64,000 nucleotides of DNA. Source: an uncultured Christensenella sp. (GTDB lineage: Bacteria; Bacillota; Clostridia; Christensenellales; UBA3700). The notes beneath the pieces were generated by a model. That model was not told the origin of the DNA, ran no database searches, and saw only the letters and a program-made list of their open reading frames with translations. Shown in pieces: positions 48,463-57,455 of the stretch; position 1 is the stretch's first letter, and every line of letters begins with the position of its first letter. Made by a program: the position numbers and the translations under genes. The stretch covers positions 118,073-182,072 of the forward strand of contig CASDWJ010000029.1 of assembly GCA_949284695.1 (NCBI GenBank). Reading direction: 5' to 3'.

Positions 48463-48484
48463 AAAAAACGAGCCTTTAGGCTCG
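48463..48484 (-). terminator. Rho-independent terminator of the helicase operon
   Basis: On the minus strand CGAGCC-TAAA-GGCTCG is followed by TTTTTT. The same terminator core occurs in the two structured repeats at 57.2 and 57.4 kb, and the flank toward 48530 also resembles the flank of the 57.4-kb copy. Confidence 0.9.
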
Positions 48485-48675: not shown

Positions 48676-51600
48676 TTAACTGATTTTTTTGTCCGCTTTT
48701 TTTATTCTTTCAAACAGGCTTGCCACTTCTTTTTCAAGCGACTGTATCTTTTCAACCGAATATTGCTTATATAATGAGGTTTCAGAAAGCATTCTGATTT
48801 TCTCTTCATTGTCGGAAATGGCTTTTTTCATATTTTCAATAATCCCATTAAAGCTTTTCAGAAAATTCTTCAGCCTGATTACGTTGCCCTTAACATTTTC
48901 TCCGAAGACCGCATAATAACTTACGCCAAGCCTTTCAAAACGGATATACGGTTTACTCTTTAATTGTCTGTCCGGCACGAACATATCGAAACCGATAAAA
49001 TTGCCGATACAACCGATAGGCGCGGCAAACAGATTTTTTGCGATAACCTCGGCGCAACCCTCTGTTTCGTCAAGGTATTCGCCGATCTTTACGCTTTGCG
49101 CATAGCGCGCGTTTTCATAAGTTATTTCGAGTTTTTGTCCGAGCTTTAAGTTTTCGTCTTTCTTCTCCTGCATTTCTTCAGCTTGTTTGCGTTTAATTCC
49201 TGCATCGGTCTGCATTACTATTCTCGCGAGCCTCAATTCATTCAACTTTTCTGCGTATTCTTTCATAAGAGGCTCATCCAAAGCAAGCGCTTTGACCTGA
49301 GCGTAGCTCAGCTCCTGATTTTCAAGATCTTCCATCGTTCTGTCTTTCTGCGCTCCGCTGAGAAATTGGGCAATAAACTTTTGCTTGTTTTCCAGTATCT
49401 GCCAGGAATACGCGTCAAAGCTACCTTTGACAACGTATCTGAAAATCAGAATTTCATCGTTTTCATTGCCGCGTCTGATTATTCTGCCCTCTCTCTGAAC
49501 CATATCGGCAGGCCTCCACGGTATGTCGAGGTGATGCAACGCTTTGAGTTTGCGCTGCACGTTGGCACCTATACCCAGCTTGACGGTAGACCCTATGAGG
49601 ATCCTGATCTTCCCGCTGTTTATACTGTTGAAAAGACTAATTCGCGCTTCTTCGTTTTCACACGAATGCACAAACGCTATCTCTCTGCCGGGAATGCCTT
49701 TTTCTCCGAGTCTGACCTTTAATTCGGCATATAAATTAAAGACTTTATTCAATGGCGTAGCAATGTCGCAAAAAACTATCTGACACCCTGACGGATAATT
49801 TTTATATATCTCGTAAACCTTATTTACGCACGCGTATATCTTATTGTGTATATCGTACGGCTGCGGTATCCCCACAAGAGTAGTACTCAGTGCCGCTTTT
49901 CTTCCGTCCGTAGTGATTTTAAGCATATTGTCTTTTTCTTTCATCACCTGTTTCGCACGGATCTTCTCAGTTCTTTCATAAAGCCCTTGCATATACAAAC
50001 TCAGTTCTTTTCCCTTTTCGACAACTTCGTCACAATAGATGCGTTTTTCAGGCAGATCTTTTCCGTTCGCTGCATGGAAAACGGCAACTTCCGCAAAAAG
50101 TCGCGACAGTTCCGGCAGATTAACAAATTTCGAGAACCTGCTGACCAGCCTGAAAGCAGAAGTGTCAACGTCTATTTCACATACTTTTTCTAACCTTGCA
50201 AAAGTCTTGACCCAATTGTCGAACTGAATGAGATTCATCTTTTCAAGAGTTCTGCTTTGCAGATAAACCTGCATATTGTATGTATCCGATATAGAATTGC
50301 AAAGAGGAGTCCCGGTTGCCAGCACCGCACCCCTTCCCCCGTTCATCTCCTGTACGCATCTGACCTTCAACAACATGTCAAGGCATTTTTCCGATCCTTT
50401 CAGATTGACTCCGCGAACGTTTCTCATACAGGTCTTTATCGGGATGTTTTTGTAGTTATGCGCTTCGTCGAGAAAAATGGTGTTTATTCCGAGTTCTTCA
50501 AAGGTTACCCCGCTCAGAGCGAAAGGCGTTATCGCAGATATGAAATCGTTGATGCTTCCGGCGATCTGCTTTTGCCGACTCGCAAGAGCTTTGGCGTTCG
50601 GCGTGCAGGATATTTTCGGATCGCATATCGCGGCTTCCAGTTTGGCTATTTCGTGTTTCATTTTCTCAGTCAGATATTTTGCAGATAAAGGGATCAACCC
50701 GAAACAACTGTAAGCAATTATTATTCCGTCAAAATCTCCGTCTCTGATGAGCCTCAGCACCTTTTGTCTTTTCTCCACGCCGAACGAATCCGGCGAAACT
50801 ACGAGTATATTCGCTTCGGGGTATAGTTTTTTAAACATAACTTCCCATTGCCCCACTATATTGTTGGGTACGACAAACAGGTTTTTTTCAGACATGCCCA
50901 TCTGCCTCATACACATGGCCGCAGCGATCATAACGTATGTTTTACCTGCCCCGACGTCGAAGGCAAGTAATGTGTTGGGCGTGGAAATTATCTTCTGCAC
51001 GGCATTTTTCTGGTAATCGTACAATCGGATCTGCGTTGTCATATCCTTAAACTTCAATTTGCTCCCGTCGTACTTTTGCCCGCCCCTTTCTCCGAAAAGA
51101 TCGTTATACGCCTCTTCTATCTCATAGCGGCGATCCTCGTCCTGCCATACCCAGTCCTGAAAAGCCTGCATTATCTTCTTTTGTTTTTCGATTGCCGCAA
51201 GCGTAATGCTCTCGCAATACTTCCCTCCCGAATAAACTTTTATTTCCCTTAGGTTGAGGGTGGCTTCAAGTATTCTCATAGCGTTGAAATACGGCAATCC
51301 GTATACATAATTTACTTCTTCGGAATTCAGATGGCAAAGCGAACAGCTCCAATGCCCGGTAATCGGCTCGTAATATATCAGGTTGTCAGGTCTCGACAAC
51401 TTAAAAACTTCCCTCAAAAAATCTTTTACTATATCGAGCGATATCCACGGCACGCCTAAATATACGTTTATGTCCCGATAACCGATGCGGTGCTCGACCG
51501 TTCCCGACACCTGAATCGAGCGCTTTTCTTTTTGCGTTTTCAATTCAAGGGCATTCCTGTAAATTTTCATCCACCTGTCTAACGTGAATTCTGCCAGATC

Positions 51601-52236
51601 TCTTTCCGAAAGATAGTCGGCAAGCTCTTTTTCGAACGGCATTTCAACGTTATTGTCATCGGATTTGCCCCCTTCCGCAATACTTCTCAACGTAAAATCT
51701 TCAGCGTTGAACACTGAGTAATCCCGAGCGAGCAACTCTTGCACAATTTGCTTTTTCAGGGCATTTTGAGGTAATACGATCAGTTTTTTGATAATTTCGT
51801 CTTTCGGCTTCGTTCTCATTGCAGGAAAGCGGTTTTTAAGCAAAATATTCTGCAGTTCGATTTTCCAAAGCACAGACAATTGTTGTTTAATCTCCGCTTT
51901 TTTGTTCCCCGTCGCTGCGCGTATTACTTTTATCCCGTCCTTTTCAACGCACCATATCCCCCAATCCGACGGCATTTTTGCTATTGCTTCTTTGACGTGA
52001 GTTGCCCCGACGACAAGTGTGTTTTCATCAAAAAAAGCGACGTATGCGTCGATCTGCCTTTTAATTCTGGCAAAATTGTCGCTGTCGCTTTTGATTTCAA
52101 ATCCGCACAGTTTGTCGGTGACAAGCATTACGTCACATATCGACGAACCTATGCTCTTTTCCTGAAAAATTCTGTAAGTCTTGTTTGTTGCCGAAAGATA
52201 TTCTATGAGTATCCTTCTTATCTCTTTATCGGTCAT
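48676..52236 (-). CDS. SNF2-type helicase with N-terminal PD-(D/E)xK (sce7726-like) domain
   Basis: This protein has 1186 aa. Residues 20-80 resemble the sce7726/PD-(D/E)xK nuclease-like fold: D35 in SSICDVMLV, E47-x-K49 in GFEIKSD, and Q61 in the following helix. A middle segment of unknown fold contains WSCSLCH. The helicase core follows: Walker A DVGAGKT, box II FLDEAHNYKN, motif III ATGTPL, and motif VI QREGRIIRRGN in the second RecA lobe. The last about 110 residues are coiled-coil-like. The helicase half resembles SNF2-like proteins carried by phages and conjugative elements, which often act with DNA methylases, but no methylase is adjacent. The promoter upstream has a TATAAT and a poor -35, so activation is plausible. 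It is the last gene of the left cassette. Confidence 0.82.
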   Translation of the reverse strand: MTDKEIRRILIEYLSATNKTYRIFQEKSIGSSICDVMLVTDKLCGFEIKSDSDNFARIKRQIDAYVAFFDENTLVVGATHVKEAIAKMPSDWGIWCVEKDGIKVIRAATGNKKAEIKQQLSVLWKIELQNILLKNRFPAMRTKPKDEIIKKLIVLPQNALKKQIVQELLARDYSVFNAEDFTLRSIAEGGKSDDNNVEMPFEKELADYLSERDLAEFTLDRWMKIYRNALELKTQKEKRSIQVSGTVEHRIGYRDINVYLGVPWISLDIVKDFLREVFKLSRPDNLIYYEPITGHWSCSLCHLNSEEVNYVYGLPYFNAMRILEATLNLREIKVYSGGKYCESITLAAIEKQKKIMQAFQDWVWQDEDRRYEIEEAYNDLFGERGGQKYDGSKLKFKDMTTQIRLYDYQKNAVQKIISTPNTLLAFDVGAGKTYVMIAAAMCMRQMGMSEKNLFVVPNNIVGQWEVMFKKLYPEANILVVSPDSFGVEKRQKVLRLIRDGDFDGIIIAYSCFGLIPLSAKYLTEKMKHEIAKLEAAICDPKISCTPNAKALASRQKQIAGSINDFISAITPFALSGVTFEELGINTIFLDEAHNYKNIPIKTCMRNVRGVNLKGSEKCLDMLLKVRCVQEMNGGRGAVLATGTPLCNSISDTYNMQVYLQSRTLEKMNLIQFDNWVKTFARLEKVCEIDVDTSAFRLVSRFSKFVNLPELSRLFAEVAVFHAANGKDLPEKRIYCDEVVEKGKELSLYMQGLYERTEKIRAKQVMKEKDNMLKITTDGRKAALSTTLVGIPQPYDIHNKIYACVNKVYEIYKNYPSGCQIVFCDIATPLNKVFNLYAELKVRLGEKGIPGREIAFVHSCENEEARISLFNSINSGKIRILIGSTVKLGIGANVQRKLKALHHLDIPWRPADMVQREGRIIRRGNENDEILIFRYVVKGSFDAYSWQILENKQKFIAQFLSGAQKDRTMEDLENQELSYAQVKALALDEPLMKEYAEKLNELRLARIVMQTDAGIKRKQAEEMQEKKDENLKLGQKLEITYENARYAQSVKIGEYLDETEGCAEVIAKNLFAAPIGCIGNFIGFDMFVPDRQLKSKPYIRFERLGVSYYAVFGENVKGNVIRLKNFLKSFNGIIENMKKAISDNEEKIRMLSETSLYKQYSVEKIQSLEKEVASLFERIKKADKKIS

Positions 52237-52386: not shown

Positions 52387-53352
52387 CTAAATAATACCTG
52401 TTTTACTTATTATATCTGTTATTTCTTCTAATGCCTTGCTATACAAATCCATTCTTCTAAGTGCCGCAGGGTGGTAAGTCCACAAGACTACCACATCTTT
52501 TCTCTCCAGCAACTTGTTTATCCTTATCTTCAAATCGTCGTTTTGAACGACACAAGTGTTTTTATTAGGATAATTCTCAAACAATTTGCTGACTTTGAGT
52601 GATTTTCTTGACAACTCTTTTTCGGACATATTCTGATGCTCAGAATCGGTGATCCCCAAGGCAACGTCAATAGATAAAGCATAAGTCGGTCCGACAGCGA
52701 AAATAACGACGTCGGGATTTGCTATTTTTATTTCCCTCTGCAAGAGAGAATAGTTTTCATTATCATATTCATACTTTGCAGAAAGATATACTTCGTCCAT
52801 ATATGTTAAAGACCATTCTGTTTCCGTTTTGCCCTCTGATCGGACAAAATGAACCTTGTCAACGTCATCCCAACACAACGATGCGTCGTTCAGCTTTTTT
52901 ATGTATCTGAAAAAATCCCAGAATGCAGACGAATTGTACTCATTATCTTTATCAGGCTGTTTTAATCTTTGTTGAACGTTAAGATAATCGTTTGCCCAAT
53001 TCTGCATTCTTTTAGCCGGCCAATGTTCTTCTTTGTTATCTACATCCTTAAAGAGAATACCCGGCTCTATTCCTTTCCACTGCCTGCTCCAACTCCCCAG
53101 TTTCCGCGCAGCCTGCCCGATTATCATGATTTTCTTCTTGTTACTTCCGATATATTCGTCCGTCAACCCCATGCAAAAAGGACATGAGATTTCTGTGTCT
53201 ATCCCTTTTGTCGCACTGTTTTCTTCTCCGTCTCCGCTGTGTTTGCCGTCGTCGGTAGGTTCTGTGATATAGGGAATCATTACTTTCTCATACCAGGCTT
53301 GCTGCGCTTTTAAAAGCAGATTGTTTTTGTCTTTTTCATTATTTCCGCTCAT
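52387..53352 (-). CDS. Uncharacterised protein with uracil-DNA-glycosylase-fold-like motifs
   Basis: This 321-aa protein was not recognised as a named family. A CPFCMG cysteine pair (57-62) is followed by KIMIIGQAARKLG (74-86). Late in the protein, WTYHPAA (H294-P295) is arranged like the GQDPY-type and HPSP-type motifs of the uracil-DNA glycosylase superfamily. The strand pattern VVIFAVGPTY and VVVLWTYHP fits that alpha/beta fold. The catalytic aspartate of true UDGs is not evident, so a nucleic-acid or nucleotide-binding role is as likely as base excision. The ATG follows AAGGAG. It lies 37 nt after the WYL gene and is probably in the same operon. Confidence 0.6.
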   Translation of the reverse strand: MSGNNEKDKNNLLLKAQQAWYEKVMIPYITEPTDDGKHSGDGEENSATKGIDTEISCPFCMGLTDEYIGSNKKKIMIIGQAARKLGSWSRQWKGIEPGILFKDVDNKEEHWPAKRMQNWANDYLNVQQRLKQPDKDNEYNSSAFWDFFRYIKKLNDASLCWDDVDKVHFVRSEGKTETEWSLTYMDEVYLSAKYEYDNENYSLLQREIKIANPDVVIFAVGPTYALSIDVALGITDSEHQNMSEKELSRKSLKVSKLFENYPNKNTCVVQNDDLKIRINKLLERKDVVVLWTYHPAALRRMDLYSKALEEITDIISKTGII

Positions 53353-53389: not shown

Positions 53390-54379
53390 TTACTTTTCTT
53401 CTCGGCAGCCGTATTTCTTTGCGGCATAATTGAGGCCGTCTACCACCTCTTGTCTCAACGATGCGGGCGAAATCACCTCTACGTAACACGCATACTGCAT
53501 CGCCCAATACAGCATCGCCTTTTTGGACGCCTTGAACGTCGCGGTTATCTTGCCGTCGTCGCATTTGCAAAACCGCACGTCGAAGCCGAACCAATCCACA
53601 ATCTGATCTGCCATCCGTTCTTCGCACGATACGGTGACCGTCTCGGGTCTGTCTGAAAACATATAAGGCATACTTGCGGATATTTCCCTGTAATCGATAC
53701 CGTTCTCGTAGCCTTTCACCTTTCTCAGATCGGTCAGAGGCTCGTCGGTGATCTCGATATCCGTTATCCTGTCCAGCCTGTAAAAATTGATATTCTTCCA
53801 CTTTTCCTGCCGCGCCATAAGAAAATAATGCTGATTGTGCAGTATCAGTTGGTATGGACTGACCTTATGGAAAGAACTTATGTGCAGCTTTTTATCTATG
53901 CCGTACTTGTTGTAATTGAAGGATATCACCTTGCCGCTTTCGATCGCGCAGTCAATGACGTCAATATTGTAAAACAGCGACATATTGTCCGACTTGTTCC
54001 AGTCGTTTACCGTATACACGTTTTTAACGTGCGACCGAAAATAGACATTCGACTGCGCGCAGAGTTTTTCTATCAGTTCTTTTGAGTGTTTCGCGTTTAT
54101 ATGCCGACTCGACAATACGCCGTCTATTAAAAGGCGCAGTTCCGGGTCCTCGAAATCACGCTCGGCAAGATAACATCCGTTTCTCGTGTTTTCTATCTCA
54201 TAGCCCGCCTCTCTCAGAAGAGAGATGTTGCGTCCTATTGCTTTTCTCTCTATCTCAATACCGTAACCGTCGGCAAGCAGCTTTGCGATATCTTCCTGTT
54301 TCAACGGATGATCGACATCGCTCTTGTCTTTAAGAATTTGTAAGATCCTCAACAGCGCAAGTTTTTTACTCTCCACCAT
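53390..54379 (-). CDS. WYL-domain transcriptional regulator
   Basis: This 329-aa protein has an N-terminal winged helix (about 1-75; ILQILKDKSD..., ISLLREAGYEI) followed by a WYL domain (about 130-220; HKVSPYQLILHNQHYFLMARQE, then INFYRLDRI). A C-terminal WCX-like extension ends it. WYL proteins bind nucleic-acid ligands and commonly repress or activate phage-defence and DNA-damage loci. The start at 54379 is preferred because GAGGTGG lies 4 nt upstream. It separates the exonuclease-like genes from the UDG-like and helicase genes. A perfect 12-bp palindrome lies 63 nt before its start, a possible autoregulatory site. Confidence 0.9.
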   Translation of the reverse strand: MVESKKLALLRILQILKDKSDVDHPLKQEDIAKLLADGYGIEIERKAIGRNISLLREAGYEIENTRNGCYLAERDFEDPELRLLIDGVLSSRHINAKHSKELIEKLCAQSNVYFRSHVKNVYTVNDWNKSDNMSLFYNIDVIDCAIESGKVISFNYNKYGIDKKLHISSFHKVSPYQLILHNQHYFLMARQEKWKNINFYRLDRITDIEITDEPLTDLRKVKGYENGIDYREISASMPYMFSDRPETVTVSCEERMADQIVDWFGFDVRFCKCDDGKITATFKASKKAMLYWAMQYACYVEVISPASLRQEVVDGLNYAAKKYGCREEK

Positions 54380-54441
54380 AAGCCACCTCTTTTTGCCAGG
54401 CAGTAACCCACCGGCGTTTTTTCTACTAAAAGCATACGCTT

Positions 54442-54453
54442 TGTCGTGCGACA
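54442..54453. promoter_or_regulatory. 12-bp palindrome ahead of the WYL regulator
   Basis: TGTCGTGCGACA is a perfect palindrome in the 106-nt gap between the WYL gene and the exonuclease-like gene. A looser GTG-N14-CAC dyad overlaps it. This is a candidate operator. Confidence 0.4.
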
Positions 54454-54485
54454 TTTTTGGTACACGATAAGTTTAGCACAAGATT

Positions 54486-55028
54486 TCAGTATCTGCAATG
54501 GGCAAAATCGTCTTCAAGCGCAAGCCTGCCGAAAATCATTGCGGTAAGTATAGCCGCTCCCGTTGCTCCGTCAAATTGCGATCGCGGGTAAAAACGTCTT
54601 GCAAAATAATCTGTTGAATAGTCTTCTATCTTGTCTCCGTATACACTTTTTGCAATGCTCAGGTTGTCGAGAATCCTGTTGTCAACGCGTTCGGCACTAC
54701 GCTCCGTTATCGCATTTAATAAAAATATATCCTCGGGTTTATGCACTACGATAATGCTTGTGCTTATGAATTTCAACAGCTTTGCAGTATTGTCGGTATC
54801 GTCATACATCACCGGTTTTCTCTCTGTACGGCACGACTTTTCCGATCCCGCAACGCTGTATGTACGGACGCATATTTTATCTGTGATCCGTACTCGGTCC
54901 TTTATATCTTTATCGGCAATCTCCCACCCTTCGAATCTGACCGCGCCTATCTCAACCTGCCCGTCGTTATTAGGTTCCCACGCGATCGCTACGAATGTTT
55001 TTCTTTCTATCAATTCCGTTAAATGCAT
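54486..55028 (-). CDS. Degenerate DnaQ-like (DEDDh) exonuclease-fold protein
   Basis: This 180-aa protein follows the epsilon/DnaQ exonuclease pattern in order. The Exo I-like strand VAIAWEP...VEIGAVRFEG (13-34) parallels VAIDFET...EIGAVRV. The Exo II-like segment is IIVVHKPEDIFLL (92-104). The Exo III-like segment is DGATGAAILTAMIF (153-166), in the place of HrAldDArATaelF. The catalytic set looks broken: the first Asp is A16, the Exo III His is D153 and its Asp is A158, while E18 and D100 remain. It should bind but not cleave nucleic acid. The ATG at 55028 has AAGGAG 5 nt upstream; a GTG two codons earlier lies within the ribosome site. It begins 9 nt after the preceding gene. Confidence 0.55.
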   Translation of the reverse strand: MHLTELIERKTFVAIAWEPNNDGQVEIGAVRFEGWEIADKDIKDRVRITDKICVRTYSVAGSEKSCRTERKPVMYDDTDNTAKLLKFISTSIIVVHKPEDIFLLNAITERSAERVDNRILDNLSIAKSVYGDKIEDYSTDYFARRFYPRSQFDGATGAAILTAMIFGRLALEDDFAHCRY

Positions 55029-55037
55029 TCTCACTCC

Positions 55038-55895
55038 TTAAAAAGGCAAAATGTTTTCGTTTATTTCATTAACAAGCTTTACCACGTTTTCCTGACTCAG
55101 TACGGACCGAAACTCCTCCGGACAAAAGAAAACCGTCTGACCGTAATAGTTTTCCAGTATTTTCAGCGCAGCTTCTATATCCAGACTTTTCCCTGCCGCC
55201 TCAACCAGCCCGCTGACAAACAAAGGATAGTTGTCTGCGCAGAATTTCATTTCTTCCGCTCTGTCGGCGAGTTTTGCCGTTATTGCGAACTTGAAATATT
55301 CTGTAAGCGCCCGCTGTTCTTCATCGTCTTTGTTTTCTCCTTCGATATAAAAACCACCGTTTGCCAAGAGCAAAAGTCGGCAATCTTTTTTTGCGTTTAT
55401 AAACACGGGCCCGATATTTCTCATATAATCAAAAATGTCCGGCAGTATCATCTCTTCAGGCGATTCCGCTTTTTTTATTATACCTTCCAATATCCCTTTG
55501 AGAGTATCTGTCGGCATCGTATCTTCGCCGTAGAAAAACTTCCTTATACGGCCGTTTTTCTTGATATAGTTTCCGATCAGCCCTTTGCTTATATCGTGAT
55601 GGTATACGGGAGCGGATTTGTGCTCGATAAGGAGCCTTTCTGTCATTATGTCCAGCTCCTGATTATCATATATCAGTTTGTAAGAAATGTCGTCCGACAA
55701 TTCTATACATACATTTACGGCGTTATTCTTATAGTAATCGTCGATACAATATTCATCGTCAACAACAAGTTGAAATACTTTCTCGTAAATCGTTCTCTCT
55801 TTTTCGTTTTGATAAAATATAAAATTTATGCCGTCCGACATCGTCTTATCAATGATTGTGCCGTTGATCACCGCTGTTACTTTTTTGATCTTCAT
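55038..55895 (-). CDS. Protein resembling an eroded YhaN/RecF-type ABC ATPase head without coiled coil
   Basis: This 285-aa protein matches no named family with certainty. Its N terminus follows the start of YhaN/RecF-like ATPases: MKIKKV...IDKTMSDGINFIFYQNEKERTI aligns with KDKTIEFSDGINLIYGPNEAGKST, so the Walker A loop (27-36) has lost its glycines and lysine. Near the C terminus, EEQRALTEYFKFAITAKLAD aligns with the LSxGTREQLYLALRLAL signature, YPLFVSG (223-229) stands where Walker B PLILDD should be, and GQTVFFCPEE matches the GQVIIFTCHEH strand. ATP hydrolysis therefore looks impossible. The long coiled coil is absent. It sits between the two exonuclease-like genes, with tight spacing (9 and 29 nt). 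Confidence 0.5.
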   Translation of the reverse strand: MKIKKVTAVINGTIIDKTMSDGINFIFYQNEKERTIYEKVFQLVVDDEYCIDDYYKNNAVNVCIELSDDISYKLIYDNQELDIMTERLLIEHKSAPVYHHDISKGLIGNYIKKNGRIRKFFYGEDTMPTDTLKGILEGIIKKAESPEEMILPDIFDYMRNIGPVFINAKKDCRLLLLANGGFYIEGENKDDEEQRALTEYFKFAITAKLADRAEEMKFCADNYPLFVSGLVEAAGKSLDIEAALKILENYYGQTVFFCPEEFRSVLSQENVVKLVNEINENILPF

Positions 55896-55924
55896 TTTTG
55901 TTTATTCTCCTGTAATGCTTGCGT

Positions 55925-56461
55925 TTACCGTCCGCCGTCGGCAGCAACGTAAAATTTCCCGTTTTTTGCAATAAGTTTATGAAACAACAGATCGTCCAGA
56001 ATTTTACACGCCTCGCCAAAACCGCTTTCGGTAATTCTCTGCACGTCTGCAAGCGTCGTCTCTCCTTTTCTCGCTTCTTGTAAAACCAGTTCATAGCGAT
56101 CGTCAAAATAACACGTGCCGTTCGCGCGTCTGACGTCGGCAAGCGTTCTCACGTCGACAAACCTCACCCCAAGCGCCCTTTCGCAAAATCCTATGTCATC
56201 GCATATTATGTGCGATCTCCCGATAAAGCGTAAAAATTCTTGCCTGACTTCTGCCTGCGGCGGATATTTTTCAAGCTCTTTATTGCTGACCCCGAGAAAC
56301 TTCTCGATAAACTTTTCAAGCGCTCTTATCGGTTTGCAAGGTTTATCAAAAATTTCGGCATGCAGATCCGACCCGAACAAAACCGCTTCAAATCTGATCA
56401 AAGACGGCTTTTCGCTATCCGTGTCCGATTGCGTCAACTTTATATATGCGTATCTGTCCAT
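55925..56461 (-). CDS. Degenerate DnaQ-like exonuclease-fold protein with C-terminal winged helix
   Basis: This 178-aa protein has residues 1-110 that track the DnaQ family. CKPIRALEKFIEKFLGVSNK parallels the P-x-x-F-x-x-x-x-x-G-I-T-N segment, EVRQEFLRFIGRSHIICDDIGF parallels the EFLEFLGDAVLVAHNAGF segment, and VDVRTLADVRR parallels VDTLxLARR. All catalytic acids seem lost (Exo I reads IKLTQ, Exo II ICDDIGFC, and Exo III is absent). Residues of about 122-170 (ELVLQEARKGETTLADVQR, ACKILDDLLFHKLI) resemble an FtsK-gamma-like winged helix and could bind DNA. I prefer the ATG at 56461, because the first ATG (56470) overlaps the AAAGGA site. It is the second gene of the cassette. Confidence 0.55.
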   Translation of the reverse strand: MDRYAYIKLTQSDTDSEKPSLIRFEAVLFGSDLHAEIFDKPCKPIRALEKFIEKFLGVSNKELEKYPPQAEVRQEFLRFIGRSHIICDDIGFCERALGVRFVDVRTLADVRRANGTCYFDDRYELVLQEARKGETTLADVQRITESGFGEACKILDDLLFHKLIAKNGKFYVAADGGR

Positions 56462-56540
56462 ATTTTTCATTTCCTTTTGCGCGCAACGGCGCCCTGCGTT
56501 TGACCGCTTCCGGACGCGTTGCCTGTCTTTGTAAAATCGT

Positions 56541-57038
56541 TTAATTTTGCTTGAGAACGCTATAATTCAGCTTGCTTATACTCGCGCATTTTTCTGCATA
56601 TTCGGAAAAATAATACGACTCCGAAGCCGTGCCGACGATCTTCACTGTATCCCCGGGCATGATGAGCTCGTACGACGAACTGACGGTAGTGCTTTTATTC
56701 CCGTTCACGTCGTAAACTACGCATTCAAACCTGACCTTGATCGGATCGTTTGACTTGTTTTTCACCTCTACGGACACGCCCGGTTTCATCCCGTAACCGC
56801 CGAGATACCCGACAAGTTTCGGCTCGCTGACTTCTTCCATCGCGCTTTCTACGCACGCCTTGGAGTTTGACACGACGTAAACGACCACACACAAAAAAAT
56901 CAGAATGCCTATCGCGATCAATATCTTTCTCACGGTTTGCGCTCTCTTATATGCCGCCGCGAGTTCCTGTTTCTGTTGTTCGGACAATACTCCCTCGTTG
57001 CCCTCTTTCCGATCATTTTCTTCTTTGATTTCCTGCAT
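56541..57038 (-). CDS. Single-pass membrane protein with extracellular FxLYD-like domain
   Basis: This 165-aa protein has a charged cytoplasmic N terminus (about 1-36), one membrane helix (about 37-58) and an extracellular beta domain. The domain contains VEVKNKSNDPIKVRFECVVYD and GDTVKI, typical of FxLYD-type domains of Clostridia membrane proteins of unknown function. The start at 57038 follows GGAGGAAT. A decayed copy of its 5' end lies 8.8 kb away at 48149-48271. It may be the first gene of the cassette or an unrelated neighbour; 79 nt separate it from the next gene. Confidence 0.75.
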   Translation of the reverse strand: MQEIKEENDRKEGNEGVLSEQQKQELAAAYKRAQTVRKILIAIGILIFLCVVVYVVSNSKACVESAMEEVSEPKLVGYLGGYGMKPGVSVEVKNKSNDPIKVRFECVVYDVNGNKSTTVSSSYELIMPGDTVKIVGTASESYYFSEYAEKCASISKLNYSVLKQN

Positions 57039-57147: not shown

Positions 57148-57248
57148 CGACCTCCCGTTGCGTGCAAGCGCACGCAACGGTCGCAACAAGCTCTTCAGCT
57201 CCACCACGCATAAAAAAAACGAGCCTTTCGGCTCGCTTATGCGTGGTG
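57148..57248. repeat. Structured repeat with terminator, copy 1
   Basis: It is about 90% identical to 57350-57455. It contains a perfect 10-bp hairpin CGTTGCGTGC/GCACGCAACG (57156-57179) and a 47-bp inverted repeat with 12-bp outer arms (CACCACGCATAA/TTATGCGTGGTG, 57202-57248). The latter encloses a terminator CGAGCC-N4-GGCTCG with its T run (minus strand). Open frames across it look spurious. Confidence 0.85.
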
Positions 57249-57349
57249 CGAACTAATATCTGTTGCAATACAACGAGGAGAGTTTTCGCCATACGGCGAA
57301 AGCCCTCACCTTATATTCATTACCTCTGACATTGTCTTTTCCGTTCGGG

Positions 57350-57455
57350 CGACCTCCTGTTGCGTGCGATTCTGCACGCAACGGTCGCAACAAGCTCCTC
57401 AGCTCCGCCACGCATAAAAAAACGAGCCTTTCGGCTCGCTTCTTATGCATGGTGG
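57350..57455. repeat. Structured repeat with terminator, copy 2
   Basis: It has the same layout as copy 1, with GTTGCGTGC/GCACGCAAC (57359-57382) and outer arms CCACGCATAA/TTATGCATGG (one mismatch). The minus-strand CGAGCC-GAAA-GGCTCG followed by seven Ts is the terminator of the hsdR/metallopeptidase operon. Between the copies (57249-57349) no gene is seen, only a short hairpin around TTTCGCC/GGCGAAA. Confidence 0.85.

Follow-up and report, generated by a model that had tools for sequence, protein, structure and literature searches.

The window analysed here, a stretch of 64,000 nucleotides, encodes two exonuclease-like proteins, P1 and P3, that appear to have lost an intact catalytic site, together with a third protein, P2, of unproven fold. 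Judged from the sequence, the loss of the exonuclease site is firm, and comparison with one relative, genome G021, provides good evidence that all three genes are under purifying selection. Dead enzymes that are kept by selection point to functions supplied by binding alone. We tentatively favour the reading that the genes form part of a single WYL-controlled unit, in which enzymes of replication and repair have become binding proteins without catalytic activity. The first-pass annotation knew of no described system with this composition, and in the open-licence papers that we searched no description of such a cassette was found either.

Gene row and genomic context

The three reading frames singled out by the first-pass annotation lie where it placed them, tightly spaced on the minus strand (Table 1), with the open frame of P3 running from 55925 to 56470 and those of P2 and P1 coinciding with the genes. 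The unit appears to exceed these three genes, so that a three-gene cassette looks too narrow a description. Because terminator-like hairpins stand before and after it, a longer row, consisting of membrane protein, P3, P2, P1, WYL regulator, UDG-like protein and SNF2 helicase, may be a single unit. The hairpin pattern matched 16 times in the region against 9.6 matches expected from shuffles; a weaker terminator-like match was recorded at 48632-48613, and others fall within the unit.

Table 1. Positions of the genes and hairpins of the window and of the miniature polymerases
Feature	Sequence	Positions	Strand	Remark
Terminator-like hairpin upstream of the unit	window	57217..57238	-	pattern match only
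Membrane protein, FxLYD-like domain; first cassette gene	window	56541..57035	-	one hydrophobic stretch by eye
P3: truncated DnaQ/DEDDh domain, predicted to lack catalytic residues, with C-terminal FtsK-gamma-like winged helix	window	55925..56461	-	
P2: 285 aa, fold unproven, without Walker motifs; gene partner of the membrane protein	window	55038..55895	-	
P1: PolC-type exonuclease fold, predicted to lack an intact DEDDh site	window	54486..55034	-	
WYL-domain (plus WCX) transcription regulator	window	53390..54454	-	Pfam WYL and WCX over cut-off
UDG-superfamily-like protein	window	52387..53352	-	phmmer links; PF03167 match of linked L093
SNF2-type helicase, N-terminal sce7726 domain	window	48676..52236	-	NCBIfam sce7726 and Pfam SNF2 over cut-off
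Terminator-like hairpin downstream of the unit	window	48469..48484	-	pattern match only
Miniature polymerase III alpha	L040	6935-8041		
Miniature polymerase III alpha	L073	853-1941		
Miniature polymerase III alpha	L095	5879-6799		
Miniature polymerase III alpha	L100	10076-10912		
Miniature polymerase III alpha	L103	3007-3798		
Miniature polymerase III alpha	L142	4468-5514		

In the first 44 kb of the window, the G+C content ranges from 0.51 to 0.57; it drops to 0.49 between 44 and 48 kb and further to 0.32-0.45 in the remainder. The cassette is located in the GC-poor part and has type I restriction genes for neighbours. Upstream are the gene of HsdR, a type I restriction subunit, and that of a YgjP metallopeptidase; a specificity-subunit-like fragment, named by eye, is located at the window's end. 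The cassette and the SNF2 gene are common to the window and G021, and the genes beyond the membrane protein are unlike in the two. Beyond the SNF2 gene, both carry the same histidine kinase gene, a flank at which G020, G016 and G023 carry other genes and which the contigs of G013 and G014 end too early to cover. Similar hairpins and repeated stretches occur at window 57217-57450, where the cassette borders on the YgjP gene.

At the other end of the row, the UDG-like protein is linked by phmmer to proteins of the loci L093, L100, L101 and L103 (E 6e-49 to 1.5e-13). The same slot in G021 is occupied by a different UDG-like protein, which matches PF03167 at E 9e-5, while the L093 protein does so at E 1.3e-4, both falling just under the cut-off. 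A UDG-fold anti-phage glycosylase, Brig1, has reportedly been described. The SNF2 helicase gene follows the cassette in both genomes, its product being 97% identical in G021. DISARM combines DrmD with DrmA, DrmB, DrmC and a methylase; among ten proteins scanned, the SNF2 gene gave DrmD and DrmA helicase matches, the former at E 3e-14 and far under the model cut-off, and DrmB and DrmC were found in none of the ten.

Exonuclease-like folds of P1 and P3

P1, whose likely start is the ATG at 55028 that matches its homologues, yields by itself a weak NCBIfam 3'-5' exonuclease match (E 4e-5, far under the model cut-off), and its homologue in G031 exceeds the Pfam RNase_T cut-off. The family comprises five full-length members, from the window, G021, G031, G238 and G137, with identities down to 30%. 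A profile built from these five retrieved the PolC exonuclease 2p1j from the PDB at E 5e-12 with 165 positions aligned, and all eight PDB sequences at E <= 1 were exonucleases or polymerases containing one. In the reverse direction, a profile of six intact exonuclease domains from relatives, run on eight sequences, found every P1 member (E 1.2e-8 to 2e-23). P1 is thus similar to the RNase_T/DnaQ domain, and it shares with P3 the sequence signature of the PolC/DnaQ DEDDh 3'-5' exonucleases (PF00929).

The catalytic set of these enzymes (Asp, Glu, Asp, His, Asp) was found intact in none of the five, which sets the family apart from PolC/DnaQ exonucleases. In the order window, G021, G031, G238 and G137, the ExoI Asp column, taken from the 2p1j alignment, holds A, A, F, H and D, and the ExoI Glu site, ungapped and two residues on, holds E, E, Q, N and G. 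The ExoII Asp site reads D, D, T, T and D, with a one-residue gap needed in the window and G021 and an insertion in G137. At the ExoIII sites, where the G021 row is unaligned and its letters were read from the five-member alignment, the His position holds D, D, F, K and D and the Asp position A, A, N, M and P. Both ExoIII residues are therefore absent from the entire family, the ExoI Asp is retained in G137 only and the ExoI Glu (E18) in the window and G021 only, and each member keeps at most two of the five DEDDh residues. Two other features are conserved in the family instead, an HLxxxIE stretch in the N-terminal part and a D-x3-H-x2-Y motif in the C-terminal part. P1 had been annotated as a DnaQ fold lacking the DEDDh acids on account of A16, D153 and A158 (counted from the ATG at 55028), and these residues do occupy the sites of the ExoI Asp and of the ExoIII His and Asp. 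A full loss of the catalytic residues, on the other hand, did not hold, as E18 is kept and ExoII has an alignable Asp. Since this Asp is alignable in the window, G021 and G137, the site loss in P1 is partial.

An active enzyme could be reconciled with this pattern if the P1 family used other conserved residues, perhaps together with the ExoII Asp, for metal binding and catalysis. The invariance of E7, D78, D131, D172 and H176 (alignment numbering) across the five members would fit such a function, as would the Asp that aligns at ExoII in three of them. However, the invariant residues lie outside the DEDDh columns, neither ExoIII residue survives in any member, and P3 is missing part of the domain. 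We know of no DEDD enzyme that works through relocated residues of this kind and regard retained activity as very unlikely.

The RNase_T match of P3 (E 1e-4) narrowly misses the cut-off, which its G021 orthologue exceeds. The DnaQ match stops near residue 100, and the ExoIII-bearing part is absent. The ExoI sites are occupied by Lys and Thr in a weak alignment (E 0.34), and the ExoII site by Cys, aligned in G021 and with identical letters in the window. The earlier description of P3 as a DnaQ-like fold devoid of catalytic sites is borne out by these replacements and by the truncation, neither the catalytic set nor the full domain of an active DEDDh exonuclease being found. P3 further departs from PolC/DnaQ exonucleases in its C-terminus, which resembles the FtsK-gamma winged helix. 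A local six-sequence profile recovered this helix at E 5.6e-5 in the window and 0.013 in G021, and the two rank 1 and 2 over 1000 shuffles, the G021 score being weak; Pfam FtsK_gamma itself gave no match to P3. Besides the window's own, 16 P3 matches were obtained, which have E values of at least 1.9e-5 and cover the DnaQ part only. A structure model of P3, based on two sequences, was unusable (mean pLDDT 38.6).

Full-length P1 occurs in four of 248 order genomes, weak unrelated hits being set aside. Outside the window's genus, a close WYL homologue is found no more than 3.3 kb away from two of three full-length genes (1.7 kb in G031, 3.2 kb in G137), and the 20 kb examined for the G238 gene gave no WYL match. 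By our own arithmetic, allowing up to 4 WYL genes per 1.7-Mb genome, the chance of this linkage is near 0.001. P1 matches within long frames of G234, G231 and G055 were rejected as dead P1, given their intact DEDDh motifs and polymerase-like frames; a second G231 match sits in a 54-aa frame. Viral, phage and plasmid matches resemble ordinary polymerases or exonucleases by annotation or position. Directly after P1 in G031, a second DnaQ-like protein of 245 aa (L038 10262-10999) was detected with the local exonuclease profile; it has Lys at the single DEDDh column that aligned.

P2, its membrane partner and selection on the frames

P2 had been interpreted as an eroded YhaN/RecF-like ATPase without Walker A and Walker B. 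Walker motifs are indeed absent from the protein, but the proposed descent found no profile similarity in its favour, and an ATPase ancestry is unproven. Although the helix and strand order of P2 can be read, by eye and in a low-confidence model, as an ABC head of the YhaN/RecF/Rad50 type, this AlphaFold2 model, built from three sequences, has a mean pLDDT of 35.2 and gave no Foldseek match at E <= 0.001. Searches of Pfam, NCBIfam, PHROG and the PDB likewise returned no meaningful match. ABC profiles derived from relatives' ATPases (47 N-terminal and 21 C-terminal stretches) failed to recognise P2, whose scores fell among the shuffled controls, whereas three intact ABC frames scored E <= 5e-9. 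In the C-terminal test, a P2-like protein of L105 reached 5.2 bits, slightly more than the best shuffle with 4.0 bits. The test is a weak one, because the C-terminal set was picked by pattern and includes transporter-type ABC proteins, and because Walker-centred profiles punish the loss of Walker motifs.

The P2 family has three members, those of G021 and G002 being 80% and 38-40% identical to the window protein. They were found in three of 46 family genomes and in three of 396 order genomes, two unrelated weak matches being set aside; in the class sample (n=291) P2 was confined to its own genome. A pattern-based scan of a genome collection placed P2 at two loci, in the uncultured Christensenellaceae bin118 and in Candidatus Alloclostridium intestinigallinarum, and no match was found in phages, plasmids or IMG/VR. 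Weak matches in G155 and G064 were discarded, as they sit within unrelated long frames. Homologues of the membrane protein adjoin P2 in G021 and G002 and a P2-like gene in three f19 genomes. In the window and G002, P2 is located close behind the membrane protein, and P3 stands between them in the window and G021. The G002 membrane protein scores 23.5 against the 23-bit NCBIfam cut-off for FxLYD, and the window copy stays below it. In G196, G266 and G296, which belong to another family, a protein of about 290 aa directly follows a membrane protein of the same family and is possibly a distant P2 relative. When the profiles of P2 and of the P2-like proteins from the f19 genomes were compared, only 26 columns could be aligned (E 0.11), so that this kinship rests mainly on the position after the membrane protein.

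The sparse occurrence of P1 and P2 also bears on the idea that P1 and P3 are structural partners of the cell's own replicases and have no part in defence. The PolC exonuclease domain is the closest match to P1, and ImuB provides a known inactive polymerase-family partner, which together with iPolY is a precedent for retained dead replication-family proteins (PMC12926913). These two precedents are Y-family polymerases, whereas the proteins of the cassette and its relatives are DnaQ or polymerase III alpha fragments. Against a role as host accessory subunits stand the low counts given above for P2 and full-length P1, the variable-region context and the intact exonuclease domains that relatives carry in long polymerase-like frames, and we judge it unlikely.

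The first-pass annotation had further suggested that the proteins are kept by selection, since the reading frames remain intact, and the comparison of the window with G021 agrees. By the NG86 method, dN/dS was 0.34 for P1, 0.32 for P2, 0.25 for P3 and 0.11 for the WYL regulator, with bootstrap upper limits of 0.72, 0.48 and 0.37 for the first three; this is a test on one genome pair, in which P1 has just 41 differences. Each of the four values lies below all 200 neutral simulations (means 0.81 to 0.90), and 40, 6 and 5 of the 200 simulations remained without a new stop for P1, P2 and P3, respectively. YN00 gave higher estimates of about 0.47 (P1), 0.45 (P2), 0.31 (P3) and 0.17 (WYL). The dS values vary among the genes from 0.08 to 0.77 and are saturated for the membrane protein, differences that suggest recombination. 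Because dN/dS is below neutral in all three genes, decay is unlikely. Pseudogenes on their way out would be in keeping with the variation of the catalytic losses between P1 members and with a P1 remnant in G040, which indicates that the gene can decay, and the selection test does draw on a single close pair. Yet family-specific P1 motifs are preserved at about 30% identity, and together with the dN/dS values this makes neutral decay highly improbable in our view. The G040 remnant (L041 9752-9946; 65 residues matched, in a 77-aa frame) lies near a transposase-like fragment, recognised by eye, and an FtsK-gamma-like gene. Apparent internal stops in P2 of G002 and in the WYL genes of G175 and G236 were dismissed as signs of decay, their coordinates showing natural gene ends.

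WYL regulators and their replisome-derived neighbours

The regulator of the row contains both WYL and WCX domains according to Pfam, and a WYL homologue at E <= 1e-20 is present in 140 of 297 sampled order genomes. CapW is said to be a WYL regulator of defence loci. BrxR loci likewise have a WYL regulator near restriction and helicase genes, and homologues of BrxR are found together with restriction and BREX systems (PMC9122601). A CBASS regulator is the subject of PMC9122588. The cassette differs from BrxR and CapW loci in that its neighbours are dead replication enzymes and its regulation is predicted. With PafBC and DriD, WYL regulators of the DNA-damage response, the cassette regulator has the WYL domain and DNA-repair-type neighbours in common. 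Activation by ssDNA is shown for PafBC (PMC11804915) and stated for DriD (PMC12340889), and PMC11804915 and PMC9122601 present WYL proteins as ssDNA-sensing or defence regulators; for the cassette regulator, an ssDNA response is proposed.

Under our tentative model of a WYL-controlled unit, DNA damage or phage replication would expose ssDNA or stalled ends, upon which the WYL protein would activate the unit. P1 and P3 might then hold primer ends or replication proteins without cutting them, P2 and the membrane protein could serve as anchors or signal relays, and the SNF2 helicase and the UDG-like protein would act on DNA. The unit probably serves to defend the cell against mobile DNA or to respond to DNA damage. 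If several replisome parts have been retired in this manner near one type of regulator, this would reveal a way for cells to detect or stop foreign replication that needs neither a nuclease nor a polymerase.

A wider survey of the order covered 43 WYL loci. Of 40 WYL neighbourhoods retrieved, L078 and L104 were left out, no WYL frame having been called, and several loci were cut by contig ends. Some WYL homologues in other families adjoin other replisome-derived genes, among them dead polymerase III alpha genes, an association that is new here. Near these WYL genes, we found proteins of 263-368 aa related to DNA polymerase III alpha. Those of L040 and L142 have Pfam palm and finger matches, the L040 protein also matches PDB 3e0d (E 9e-15), and phmmer links it to the proteins of L073, L095, L100 and L103 (the last at 8e-9). 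Compared to 25 intact palms, the miniature polymerases lack the PDxDxDF motif, the one with the catalytic aspartates, as seen in an alignment that spans the motif in G167 and G314 and as read separately for the other three. An FtsK-gamma-like helix opens the dead polymerases of L040, L073 and L142.

Scanning 248 genomes for the polymerase yielded five short proteins at E <= 7e-73, in frames of 270-368 aa, and the other matches listed were mostly frames of more than 1000 aa, the length to be expected of DnaE or PolC. In G137, G167, G175 and G236, whose polymerases had all been used to build the scan profile, a dead polymerase and a WYL gene are at most 5 kb apart; in G314 the two are adjacent. 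The dead polymerase of G213, found afresh, is on a 12-kb contig without a WYL match. Among the 38 retained loci that had been selected by WYL alone, four have a dead polymerase (L073, L095, L100, L103) and three a P2-like gene (L099, L102, L105); neither was found in the other 31. Most WYL loci have no such neighbours, as 27 of the 43 bear no label at all and two labels are cross-hits or part cross-hits (POL for L007 and Q2 for L076 were left uncounted as cross-hits). The association of WYL genes with dead replisome proteins is real for some branches and not general.

These loci could draw on a shared pool of inactivated and miniaturised replisome proteins that serve as sensors or decoys of replication forks and include DnaQ, polymerase III alpha and possibly an ATPase, an extension that we consider rather doubtful. 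If true, it would amount to a previously undescribed principle of defence or damage response. As possible roles of the three proteins, the first-pass annotation had offered a sensor of DNA ends or replication forks and a decoy for phage anti-defence proteins. A narrower proposal, that the dead enzymes mimic the replisome parts attacked by phages and act as decoys for anti-defence or replication-takeover proteins, would explain why DnaQ, polymerase III alpha, the DnaB C-terminal domain and FtsK-gamma occur truncated or stand-alone near WYL regulators. The DnaB-like protein of L075, however, keeps its Walker A motif by eye, so that not all of these proteins are dead, and a decoy function seems to us quite unlikely.

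Several further gene arrangements were observed at these loci. L075 (7061-9123) carries, in a row, a stand-alone DnaB C-terminal domain, a WYL regulator and a stand-alone FtsK-gamma domain. Related PD-(D/E)XK proteins are encoded near WYL genes in G002 (L007 10400-11587, over the Pfam PDDEXK_4 cut-off) and G137 (L040 8108-9415). By eye, metallophosphatase-like genes are found near P1 or WYL loci (L039 10181-10909, L100 11294-12106, L101 11124-11630), and Sel1-repeat-like genes near WYL genes (L099 6159-6977, L103 4224-4997, L105 7170-7907, L038 13408-14235).
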